This document shows, piece by piece, positions 50,511-59,500 of a stretch of 64,000 nucleotides of DNA (positions are counted from its first letter, which is position 1; each line of letters opens with the position of its first letter). The position numbers and the translations under genes are program-made. The stretch covers positions 1,798,001-1,862,000 of the forward strand of contig BQMF02000011.1 in NCBI GenBank assembly GCA_027922465.2, in the 5' to 3' direction. The DNA comes from Turritopsis dohrnii (Eukaryota; Cnidaria; Hydrozoa; Anthoathecata; Oceaniidae). The notes under the pieces are model-generated. The model ran no database searches. It saw only the letters and a program-made list of their open reading frames with translations, and was not told the DNA's origin.

Positions 50511-53500
50511 ATGTCCAATGTTGATATGTCATCAGATTCTTCAAAAACTAGCAATGTGAAAGTGGTTGTTCGCGTTCGTCCACCAAATGCCAAAGAATTG
50601 AGTTGTGGCAAAACAAATGTTGTCAAAGTTATGGATGAACACATGTTGACGTTTGATCCCAAGGATGACGATTCAAGTAATTTTTTTGTATCAAAACCGC
50701 GAACATCAATACTGGATAAGAGAATCAGAGACTTGCATTTTGCTTTCGATCGAGTATTTGACGATCAAGCTTCTAATAAAGATGTGTTCCAGCACACAAC
50801 ACGAGGTGTTTTGACAAGTATACTTCAGGGTTATAATTGCTCTGTGTTTGCGTATGGGGCTACCTCAGCTGGGAAGACACATACAATGCTGGGTTCCACA
50901 GAGGAGCCAGGTGTGATTTTCCTGACTATGATGGAGTTGTATAAAAGACTGATGGAGAAACAAGATAAATTTGACAGTGATATTTCCGTCTCTTATTTGG
51001 AGGTAAAACAAAACTGAAGGCTATTGTCACGTTTGTAGAGGGTTGCAACAATAAACTGAATGACCCCTTTTTAGATCTATAATGAAACCTGTAAAGATCT
51101 GTTGCTTCCAACCGGTCCATTAGCGGTTCGCGAAGATCCTGAAAAGGGAGTGTGTGTAAATGGTCTTTCACTGCATAAGGTATGTGATCACAGTAGAATG
51201 TAGGAAGAAAAAGTTTTTATTGTTGGCTTTGATCAATATTTTATTCGCATCATGATATTTTTTGAGTATTTATAATATAATTACAGTATAATGGAGTATA
51301 CTGTATTTCGAATTATTGATACAGTTCATTCCCTCAGTGCATATTTGAAGGGAGATATCAAGGATTTTAAATTAGTTTCCATAAATTTAGCCAAGAAGTG
51401 CTGAAGAACTATTAGAAATGTTACATTTCGGGAATCAGAACCGAACCCAACATCCGACTGATGCAAACAAACAATCATCTAGATCACATGCAGTTTTTCA
51501 GGTGATTGATTATCACATTACTTTCATGCTATTATCATTCCTGCTGTTGAAAATATACTATGCAGTTGGTTGAAAATGTTTAATCCCTTAAAAAAACATT
51601 GAAAGACATGTGGAGGGGTTTGACTAAAGCCTTGATGTGAGTGAGATGCTTAAGCTTGGTTTTCATTAGGCACTAATTGCATTAATTTTTTCGTGTAAAT
51701 TTTAGTACCTGGAATTAATCTTATTGTGTATCTGTTTTAAGACCTTTCCACTTAAAAACAAAATTGATGCAGGTTTATTTCTTTTTTGGAATGAAGCATG
51801 GCAGATAACATCGACAAAGAGCTTTTACTCTGGACCTTGACAAATGAGAAGAAGAGAACAAGCATTTCTGTTCGCATCACGTTCTTTGAAGGTTTTGTCT
51901 TTTGTCATACAAACATGGAAAAAAATTTAATCTCAAAATTTATCTCAATTCAACCCACTTGTTTAATGTGCCTAATGGAAACCAGGCTTTACAGAATCAT
52001 TTCATTTGATATTTTGTTATGATCTACAGTGCAGCAGTTAAGTTTATTGATGTTTGATGAAAAGAAAGTTGACTTTTTTCCTATTGTCTACTAAAGGGAA
52101 ATGTCTTCTTATTTTTTGATGGATCCAGTTTTGCCTTACCAAGGACAATTAAGTGACAAGGGAAAAACGTCCACATAATGATTACCTGCTGTAATTTTTA
52201 TAGGTATTTGTGAAGCAATGTCCTAAAGCATCTGGACTTTCTACTTCATTTACAGTAGCAAAAATGTCTCTTATCGATCTTGCTGGATCAGAACGTGCAA
52301 CTGTTACAACGAATCGAGGTGATAGGCTGCGAGAAGGGGCCAATATTAATAAGTCACTTTTAGCACTTGGAAATTGTATCAATGCATTGGCAGAAAATAA
52401 GGTGCTCAAATATAAATTTTTTTTTTTTATCTTTCTAATTGTGTTTTATTTTTATATTTACATTTCATTTAATTTTTTTCATTTCAGAGTAATTTACACA
52501 TACCATATCGAAACAGTAAATTGACACGATTATTAAAAGATTCTCTTGGTGGTAATTGCAAAACCATAATGATTGCTGCAGTAAGGTAACCGTTTTCAGT
52601 TGTTAGACGGACTGTCAGTTATCTGAGGTGATATCATAGTTCAACAACTAAAATCTTCCTGTGGAAAAAGTGAAGTTCTATTTCAGCAAGCATTTCTTCT
52701 TCTATAAGTTCTGTTTTGTTTTCATGAAATCATAATCAGTGTATAAGTTGTTTGTTTTTTTCAATAGTCAGTTTAATTTGGCAACTACTGCAACAACTAC
52801 TGCTCAACCAACACTTGAATTAATAGGATACCTAAACATAGCCATTTCTCTGTACATTTTCTACCTTTCCTTTTATCAAGTTATATACACTTTTACTGAA
52901 TTTTCACCTAACTTCAACTTCAACAGGTGCCAAGGGATTTGGACTAACCTGACACTGTTTAAAAATTGAAAATAACACTTAATCTATCTGATGATGAACG
53001 GCATTCAAACTTTCTTCTGCTGGACTGGTTAGCTTGGTCACACTTCATTGGTTCATATCAAGGCACCAGAAAGATCTTTCCCTTTGAATATGGAGGCACT
53101 TATTTTTCTCTTTGAAGTTTTCTTGTCCGTCAAAATTTTCATCATTCCTTTCATTTCATTTAAACTGTGTTCAATATGCGCAATCCGACATTCTAGTTTG
53201 TCTCTATCGTCTTCGCTTGTGCTGTATTCATTCCTCCAAACATATCCATTATCTGGTTTTGACATTCTTCTCAAATCATCTAATTGCATATCTGTGACTG
53301 GTACTCGTGAGTGTCTTCTTCCACTGTTAAAGATCGGTGTTCCTGGTATTATGTTGACTTGAGGAATGCTCCATTTGCGTTCCATTTCGAACTTTTCCGT
53401 ATCATTTTCAACTGTGTCTTTTTTATAGAGACAATTCCACTGGTCTCTCATATATATTGGCCTTTTTAAGACGTGCCTTTCAACGAGAATGCATGAAATT

Positions 53501-56500: not shown

Positions 56501-59500
56501 TTAGACTGCAAGAAGGTGATGTATGTGCTATAATTTTGGAAGCCATGATAATAGTTCAAAGACCAGTTCTGGGTTGCTTCGCCGCAATAGGTGAGGACTC
56601 TGCTCATTACATCTGGAATGAGTCCCTCTGCTTCGTTCGTCGAATTCTTTTTCCCGCGAATGTATGGCCATATTGGCCAGTAGAACATATGATGAGAAAC
56701 GTGTGCACAAACTCCATTCAATGTAACAAAGAAAATGAAGAATAACGAAATACAATTGTTTTGCTTCATTTTTTCTTTCATCTCGACTTTATATTCCGAT
56801 CATCGCATTCGTGTTGACATTTTTACCATTTTTCTGTTGTTGTTTTTTTTTTTTTTTCGTTTCATTCGATCGTACTTTTTCAGTCGATTCAGTTTTAACT
56901 AGTGATTCTTGTTTGAATCACTTCATAAAATATGCATATCTTTCTTTCTTGGTTTCACAGCAACAACAACAGCCGCTAATCCATCAATAAAATGCCACCG
57001 AACGAAAAATTCGTCGACGTGTGGCTATGTTTAGATGACGTAATTAGTACCGTTGATTTCAAAACACGTCTTGAAATAATATTTATTCTTTACTATGGAA
57101 CAAAAATAGACGCTTGTTATGATGCCTTCAAATTTAAAACTTCATTTGGGCAATTTTGTGGTTTCTCTTAAATCACTCACTCCATTGCAACATTTGAATG
57201 CTGTGTACGTTTTATTATTTTTTTTCTATCGATTAATGTTTTTCCAGTCCATCAACGTTGAGTTATGAAGATACATATAACACGCTGAAGTATGCAAACC
57301 GCGCCAAAAACATCAAATCAAACCTGAGTGTAAACACGATGAGCGTGGATCATCATATATCTCAGTATACTAAGATCGTGGAAGAACTAAAGGCGCAGGT
57401 TGTAACACCTTTTTTAGTTAGTGTTAGAGTTATGTCGACTTGAGTGTGTATTGTTCTGATTTTGTTTTTTTTTTAGGTCGCTAAACTTCAATCACAGCTC
57501 GATGCTCAACACACCTCCAATTCGCAAGTGTGTGACGTAAACTCCACACACTTACAAACATTAAAAAGGTTTGATTTTTTTTCCGATACACGTAAATTCT
57601 TCACTAATCTTTGGATCGTGATTGAAAAATCTCCGCTTTAGGGTGTTAGACTTGAAGGGCGTTATTTTACTTACATAGATTTGAAGGGCGTTTGGCGTTG
57701 CTGTACAAAGAAAAATATGTTTTTAAACAGGACTTGATACAATGCGAAGCAACCGAACGAAAAATCCACATGAAACTTCAAATAAAAGTAAGTAAAGTTG
57801 AGAATGCCTTTGAGAGGATTGGAGGGAGGGGGGGAGTAGTCGCGAGATTGATGTTTCTGGGTTACGTATTTTTTCATAGGAGAAAGAATATAAGCTGAAG
57901 GATGACCTTTCTTTTATTGATGGAGTCGGAAATTCAAAGGAAGTGAGCAATTTATTTATTTATTCCATTGAGAATACTTTTCACTGTAAACTGAAACAAC
58001 AGATATTAAAGGAACGTGGTTCTTTAAAAATAAAGTGATTCCATGAAAAAATGTATTATCAGATACAGATAAAACATTTACTTTATTTTCATGGATGGCT
58101 TGGAATCATGTTACATTTTTTCTTTACTAAATTAGCTGAAAATATGCTTAAAGAATAACATTCACCGGGGGAAACTTACTCTTACACTTGTTACATACCT
58201 GTATGGTTCCTAAATTTTCCGATGTTCCATTTTTGCTAAACATTTCAGTAGTCGAATAATGCATATATCTATGTGTGTTCACAGGCAACCGCACGAATGA
58301 ACAACATTCGCAAGACAGAAGAGTGTAAACTGCTGCAGCTTAACGAGCAAAAGTTGCGACTGCAAGCATCACTGGAGGAGAATCGGCACCAGTTGTCTCG
58401 ATTGCATGACGAGCTGAACCAATGGGCGAATAAGACCGACTCGCTTATTCGGATGCAAATAAATTTGATGTACGAAGCGAAAGATAATGCACTGGAGAAA
58501 TTGTATTTACAAAAACAAGCGAAATATTGGGAGAAGTGCTTTAAGACTCAAGTCTCTGAGATGGAGAGGTCTGAAAGGTAAAAAAAGCATCATTCTCTCC
58601 ATCGTCGTAAGGTAAAAAATCATGTCAACTCAGCGATGAACGGTTTTTATTATTTCTGCATGGCTTATTAACTTTATGAAATGGAGGCTGTATGATACCG
58701 AAGGATCCTGTTAATACCGAACTAATGATTGGGGTTATATTTGAGGTTGGGGTTAGATTTGATGATACTTGAGATGAAATACTTTCTCCGTTTGCAGGAA
58801 ATTTTTATTTTTAGAATGACGAATCATTTGCTATCCATTTTGAAAGCTCAGCAGGATATAATTGAGTGTTTTAAAACGAACAAACTTGACGAGATATCCA
58901 GTACTTCATTGACGTTTGAAAGTGCTGTCGAGGAGTTGATCTCAATGTTTTCTTGCGGAGCGAAAGTATCATGGGCTGACCAGTCGTGTATGGAAGACAA
59001 AACCACCACCTCGAATATGCCACCGTGTTTGACAAATTTCAGTACTTGTACTCCGTTCAAAACGCCGTCCCGCAAACCAAGCATCTTGCGACAGATGGTT
59101 CTAGATTCGCGTAAAAACGATTCTATACCCGAAAAGTCGCATTCATCATCGACTGAGCGAAATACCATCCACAATGCTGGACCGATTCGTTCCAAACTCC
59201 TCTTTACTGACAAAGAAAATTTACCGCCAAACGCTACATCTAATGATGGCACCGATGGTTCCACAACTCCACTTATGAAACGACGTCAGACGTACGTCGG
59301 GACGGATATGAATGCGACATTTTCATTGGCTAAGAAACCGAAGAGAAGCCTCTCCTCTTGCTCTCCAGACATTGATGGCATGGAGTTTGAAGTGGCTTTA
59401 ACTCCACCATCATCGGACTCACACCTTCTATCGAGAATCCCTATTCCAACTCCTCTGAAGTGCTTAAGCAATAGCAGGAGAGGTCGGTCACATATGCGAT

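Follow-up and report, generated by a model that had tools for sequence, protein, structure and literature searches.

A Turritopsis dohrnii gene predicted to encode a receptor channel of ionotropic glutamate receptor architecture with a potassium-channel filter

The window analysed here, 64,000 nucleotides of Turritopsis dohrnii contig BQMF02000011.1 (positions 1,798,001 to 1,862,000), carries on its minus strand (53053-56781) a gene whose predicted product combines the segment order of ionotropic glutamate receptors (iGluRs) with the selectivity filter of a potassium channel. Judged from its sequence, the gene is real and conserved and encodes a channel of iGluR type whose filter is that of a potassium channel. 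The product is likely to be a subunit of a ligand-gated, potassium-selective channel with the architecture of GluR0 and the iGluRs, including a last membrane segment (M4) and a tail, lacking an amino-terminal domain and probably responding to a ligand other than glutamate. More tentatively, we propose an invertebrate receptor family, so far undescribed and with one probably hydrozoan member, which would have kept the ancestral potassium pore of iGluRs, acquired a new ligand that is neither glutamate nor glycine, and become directly inhibitory; this wider proposal is possible but doubtful.

The gene consists of six exons that encode 561 residues and a stop, with all phases in frame. All five introns are of the GT...AG type, and the second falls within the first glycine codon of the filter (GG in exon 2, G in exon 3). 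The ligand-binding regions S1 and S2, the membrane segments M1, M3 and M4 and the pore loop (P) are distributed as follows:

56215-56781, minus strand: exon 1; signal peptide (about residues 1-26), S1 (27-166) and M1 (167-189), followed by the donor GTAAGT
56377-56430, minus strand: 18-residue stretch of S1, taken as the counterpart of TITxxRE..DF of bacterial GluR0-type proteins; without Arg or Lys in all three family members
55443-55534, minus strand: exon 2; linker between M1 and the pore, then the pore helix, ending two bases into the codon of the filter glycine
55443-55453, minus strand: first part of the selectivity filter, TTI and GG of the glycine codon (residues 217-220)
55215-55362, minus strand: exon 3; end of the filter, M3 (about 55328-55251) and start of S2
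55353-55362, minus strand: second part of the selectivity filter, the last base of the glycine codon followed by YGD (residues 221-223)
55069-55132, minus strand: exon 4; S2, including W277 (55111-55109)
53760-54028, minus strand: exon 5; S2, including N313 (53963-53961)
53053-53598, minus strand: exon 6; remainder of S2, M4 (about 53550-53485), the cytosolic tail and the stop codon
53308-53319, minus strand: RRHS in the tail (residues 474-477); RRHS or RRHT in all three family members

Homologues were searched among 5.8 billion proteins by a method that reaches only relatives sharing exact words with the query. Two proteins matched over nearly their whole length: P0001 (535 amino acids, 46% identity, 97% coverage, E 1.1e-155) and P0002 (557 amino acids, 38% identity, 89% coverage, E 1.1e-115). 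The third match, P0003 (E 3.6e-9), is bacterial and carries the domains SBP_bac_3, Lig_chan and Ion_trans_2, and the last two, P0004 and P0005, have channel domains only and cover 16% and 9% of the query. In tblastn, P0001 matches all six exons of the receptor gene and P0002 five of them; in one alignment both run continuously over the exon junctions, P0001 to the final residues before the stop. The gene model is thus beyond chance, and the six exons and 561 residues proposed in an earlier note on this DNA are borne out by the two homologues as well as by the introns and their joining phases. As far as the homologues can tell, nothing speaks against the join of the filter exon to S2, on which the earlier note made its reading depend. 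The reading frame of P0001 takes up the greater part of its 1756-base contig, as expected of a spliced RNA or an intronless copy. P0002 bears the name TCONS_00028612, a style which PMC10620158 uses for Clytia hemisphaerica transcripts, and on this ground it probably comes from Clytia; in the open-access literature searched, no mention of the name was found, and a search for Clytia and glutamate receptors returned nothing related.

The window protein, P0001 and P0002, referred to below as the family, are three different proteins; they may not represent three species and need not be orthologues. They were found by a search of limited reach and set no bound on the spread of the family. A repeat search with a three-row profile yielded as extra matches P0006-P0008, each with 7-8% coverage, and a scan of genome contigs with P0003 yielded one locus. 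In a further protein search with an alignment called A3, only the 7999 candidates sharing most words were scored; even its own query members P0002 and P0003 were not listed, so that little can be concluded from the lack of further animal members in its output. No second copy of the receptor gene was found in the 64-kb window by tblastn with the three members.

Hydropathy reveals hydrophobic stretches fitting a signal peptide, M1, M3 and M4. The order signal peptide, S1, M1, P loop, M3, S2 is shared with both homologues, and M4 and a cytosolic tail follow S2 as in eukaryotic iGluRs. The filter reads TTIGYGD in two members and STVGYGD in the third, which corresponds to the TXVGYG type. The segment order read earlier from the DNA alone, with its TTIGYGD pore loop and a further membrane segment, therefore agrees with hydropathy, filter and both homologues. 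S1 directly follows the signal peptide and no further Pfam domain was found, hence no amino-terminal domain; nor was a voltage sensor seen in the protein. Residues 1-166 of the window protein contain six N-glycosylation sequons against 1.5 in shuffled sequences (6/2000 shuffles had as many), an excess that is weaker in P0001 (3; 104/2000) and P0002 (3; 272/2000), while in the tail of the window protein basic residues number 27 and acidic ones 21, alongside one sequon and the RRHS site. Sequons and tail charge suit an S1 located outside and a tail located inside the cell; they are no proof of it. We take RRHS to be a consensus of the protein kinase A type. Most of the tail diverges, and C-terminal residues (53056-53088) are common to the window protein and P0001 and not to P0002. 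The RRHS/T site and this conserved end could possibly serve as a regulatory site or a binding motif.

The kinship of the two extracellular halves was assessed with the pore excluded, by comparing S1 and S2 profiles of the family with those of 17 bacterial GluR0-type proteins (P0003, P0009-P0022, P0024 and P0025) using hhalign and 300 column shuffles. The set excludes P0023 (235 amino acids) and P0032, in which Pfam finds no pore domain; the L001 protein was used in A3 only. S2 matched GluR0-type S2 with a probability of 90.4 and a score of 40.5, whereas none of the 300 shuffles exceeded 22.8 and the cross control, family S2 against bacterial S1, gave 18.3. Since no shuffle equals its score, S2 is, on this profile evidence, kin of GluR0-type S2. 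A structure model of the protein has two lobes in S1/S2, seen with moderate confidence, and matches the GluR0 core over both of them, GluR0 being the first-ranked fold match (with GluR0-type proteins in the input alignment). Foldseek ranks animal iGluRs first; the other fold search had none among the 50 matches listed, an absence that excludes nothing.

The pores were compared with those of 14 potassium channels (P0004, P0005, P0007, P0026-P0028, P0030, P0031 and P0033-P0038; P0036, nearly identical to P0037, bears a precomputed Lig_chan label as well). The comparison did not include P0006, P0008, P0029 and P0039-P0042. Two features, selected like the other pore features with the sequences already in view, tie the family to GluR0-type proteins: a turret motif (family 3/3, GluR0-type 11/17, potassium channels 0/14) and a tryptophan in M3 (3/3, 15/17 and 0/14, respectively). 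In a tree of 35 pores and 105 columns the three members are united (99/98), the shortest paths from the family to other rows lead to GluR0-type proteins, and the 14 potassium channels fall on one side without the family, with weak support (67/75). A second family glycine in M3, at +26 from the filter (residue 246; M3 55251-55328), occurs in 0/31 other sequences.

A number of results weigh against this assignment. The S1 score against GluR0-type S1 was 12.1, which 115 of 300 shuffles attained, so kinship of S1 is not seen by sequence. The strongest Pfam domain of the window protein is the pore (Ion_trans_2, 2e-13); Lig_chan stays under its cut-off of 30.8 bits in the window protein (20.1 bits) and P0001 (24.8 bits), and neither S1 alone nor S2 alone reaches any Pfam cut-off, the best match being SBP_bac_11 for S2 (13.2 against 25 bits). 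The 60 best PDB sequences listed are potassium channels matched around the pore. The fold match to GluR0 is not independent because GluR0-type proteins were present in the model's alignment. The predicted local distance difference test (pLDDT) is below 50 in 47 of model residues 92-149 and in S2 model residues 330-342 and 360-380, and Foldseek TM-scores by query are 0.21-0.30 among the 50 matches listed. A model of P0001 with P0002 alone in its alignment, and no GluR0-type protein, had a mean pLDDT of 35.3 and was discarded. From the pore itself, the M3 glycine at +22 from the filter (residue 242), which we take to be the usual potassium-channel hinge, is present in 3/3 family members, 13/14 potassium channels and 2/17 GluR0-type proteins, and the tree groups the AMPA-receptor subunit GluA2 with the GluR0-type pores (96/92), leaving the family outside with potassium channels on its other side.

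The domain matches are what an ordinary two-transmembrane potassium channel flanked by unrelated extracellular regions would give: Ion_trans_2 on top, an S1 without recognisable kinship and no binding-domain match in Pfam for the window protein. We nevertheless regard such a channel as highly improbable. Its S2 would not be expected to match GluR0-type S2 without help from the pore, as found here with 0/300 shuffles, nor its model to cover the GluR0 core over both lobes (a match that shares sequences with its target); signal peptide, M4 and sequons likewise argue against it. The predicted structure came out bilobed, not as a two-transmembrane channel devoid of S1/S2, GluR0-type proteins being part of the alignment behind it. 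Of the domains that the earlier note expected from Pfam, Ion_trans_2 was found, and Lig_chan passed its cut-off in P0002 only (31.3 against 30.8 bits), remaining under it in the window protein and P0001.

The hinge glycine and the tree bear on a different account, in which an animal iGluR-like or binding-protein-like receptor took up an ordinary potassium-channel pore by swap or fusion; its filter would then not descend from the ancestral iGluR, and it would gate as in the reading preferred here. The position of GluA2 in the tree speaks for it, and a clade of the family with GluR0-type proteins to the exclusion of GluA2 was disfavoured by the approximately unbiased test (p-AU 0.0325), a test weakened by the long GluA2 branch inside the GluR0-type proteins; GluA2 is also the only animal iGluR in the tree, which with this sampling does not separate a relic from a regained pore. 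The best pore matches in the PDB are Kv channels. Against such a regained pore stand the turret motif and the M3 tryptophan, shared with GluR0-type proteins and absent from all 14 potassium channels (a choice of features made post hoc), together with the separate, weakly supported side of the potassium channels and the GluR0-type nearest rows. We judge it rather unlikely.

A bacterial GluR0-type gene that entered an animal lineage by horizontal transfer and later acquired introns and M4 would account for the fact that the nearest outside relatives found are bacterial. A resemblance to bacterial iGluRs is also stated, in PMC12226733, for AvGluR1 of a bdelloid rotifer. The family, however, shows an identity to bacterial GluR0-type proteins of just 17-26%, the receptor gene has five introns, M4 is not seen in the 17 bacterial rows, and the three pores are not nested among the 17 bacterial ones, which together make a transfer quite improbable.

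In amino-acid-gated receptors of this fold, an S1 arginine binds the alpha-carboxylate of the ligand and an S2 acidic residue its alpha-amino group. At the S1 column, GluR0-type proteins have Arg in 14/17 rows, one residue earlier in 2/17 (P0011 and P0017) and Asn in P0019, whereas the corresponding stretch of the family is devoid of Arg and Lys. This correspondence comes from alignment by eye and from a five-row alignment, which puts PF[VL]S of the family opposite the TITxxR stretch; MAFFT runs under three sets of options and on 100 random subsets of the bacterial proteins failed to place PF[VL]S there by our own rough criterion. The S2 aspartate, present in 14/17 GluR0-type proteins, is Asn (N313) in 3/3 family members; it is not universal among the bacteria either (P0014 Asn, P0019 Ser, P0021 Gly). 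Finally, the position of W277, following a conserved Ser/Thr, is Trp in 3/3 members and in 0/17 GluR0-type proteins, 13 of which have Ser/Thr. Classical binding of an amino acid appears unlikely: the fold has had the residues that would hold one exchanged for others, and glutamate is therefore probably not the ligand. The earlier note had described a potassium-filter channel of glutamate-receptor type: its architecture, with the filter in three proteins, the S2 kinship and the two-lobed model, is supported, but glutamate as ligand is not, all three mappable pocket positions being changed, a loss on which the note had not remarked. 'Glutamate receptor' is used here for an architecture and not for a ligand. 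Animal iGluRs with changes preventing amino-acid binding are described, commonly among cnidarian NMDA-like proteins, in the survey by Ramos-Vicente et al. (PMC6307864).

Altered pockets could also mean that ligand gating has been lost, leaving a potassium leak that is constitutive or regulated from within, or a subunit that serves as an obligate partner. Some arthropod ionotropic receptors are such partners. In favour of this, the mapped pocket residues are gone in 3/3 members, and the RRHS/T tail site could permit regulation from inside. On the other hand, all three members have identical residues at W133-N135 and N313-I316, among others, which suggests that the domain still has a specific role, and we consider loss of gating unlikely.

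For a ligand-gated receptor, we would expect four subunits per channel by analogy, each with an extracellular S1/S2 clamshell and an inverted potassium-channel pore (M1, P, M3) inserted between its halves. Closure of the clamshell on the ligand would pull M3 open, and the ensuing potassium efflux would hyperpolarise the cell. Conduction, selectivity and an inhibitory role are all extrapolated from the primary structure. A synthetic glutamate-gated potassium channel, in which a viral potassium pore is joined to an AMPA receptor domain, is described as functional in PMC6385376 and PMC12332018, so that the union of receptor domain and potassium pore is feasible.

GluR0 of Synechocystis and other bacterial GluR0-type channels share with the family the order S1-M1-P-M3-S2, a TXVGYG-type filter and the lack of an amino-terminal domain; the family differs in having M4, a long tail and introns, in lacking the S1 Arg and the S2 Asp, and in an S1 unrecognisable by sequence. 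Animal iGluRs (AKDF, NMDA, epsilon) and the lambda receptors of sponges have in common with it S1/S2, M1, the re-entrant loop, M3 and M4. Unlike these, it has a canonical potassium filter, no amino-terminal domain and VITATVTDA in place of SYTANLAAF (2/9 residues kept, by our own reading); the direct comparison with this group covered a GluA2 segment. Arthropod ionotropic receptors resemble the family in having an iGluR architecture that has lost the amino-acid pocket; we know of none with a GYG filter, unlike the family. Kv-type channels have the same pore loop and inner-helix glycine, whereas in the family no voltage sensor is visible and the pore lies between S1 and S2, with M4 to follow. 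AvGluR1 of Adineta vaga is described as an animal protein of iGluR type with a potassium filter (PMC12332018 and PMC12226733). Glutamate is one of several amino acids that activate AvGluR1 (PMC12226733), whereas the amino-acid pocket of the family is altered.

Animal iGluRs are generally regarded as excitatory cation channels, for instance in PMC13335744, and no animal iGluR with a potassium filter other than AvGluR1 was found in the open-access literature searched. The criteria of earlier surveys may constitute a blind spot for potassium-filter receptors. By the account of Ramos-Vicente et al. (PMC6307864), sequences with < 4 SYTANLAAF residues were discarded; the family, with two, is by our own reading excluded. 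The iGluR profile threshold (E-value 1e-10) and clustering at 1e-60 given by Singh et al. (PMC12226733) would probably exclude it too. If the family is conserved in other animals, the potassium form either survived in animals or arose anew there. If the proposed function is true, these receptors would be a native counterpart of the synthetic channel with a viral pore (PMC6385376) and a new candidate for fast inhibition, distinct from inhibition based on chloride or on G proteins.

The entire receptor gene lies in opposite orientation inside an intron of a kinesin gene, a setting that the earlier note had not picked up. Neighbouring features of the window are:

52586-57247, plus strand: kinesin intron containing the receptor gene; the flanking exons join into usual kinesin text
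50460-51014, plus strand: kinesin motor domain exon
62346-63536, plus strand: ADAM-type metalloprotease exon
9471-9878, plus strand: dermatopontin exon
14797-15159, minus strand: acyl-CoA dehydrogenase exon

The introns of the receptor gene hold a dispersed, partly inverted repeat (54129-54247, 54636-54760, 55015-55063 and 55871-55972), in which a 49-nt unit occurs four times, the others being 63-78% like the reference, and 55-nt inverted arms are 78% complementary; presumably it resembles a miniature inverted-repeat transposable element. Short related pieces occur at 34472-34488 and 11023-11039. A Pao-type retrotransposon remnant is present on the minus strand at 45805-46344 (Pfam Peptidase_A17), and open frames up to 48525 resemble, by eye, parts of the same element, 46743-47465 having no Pfam match.

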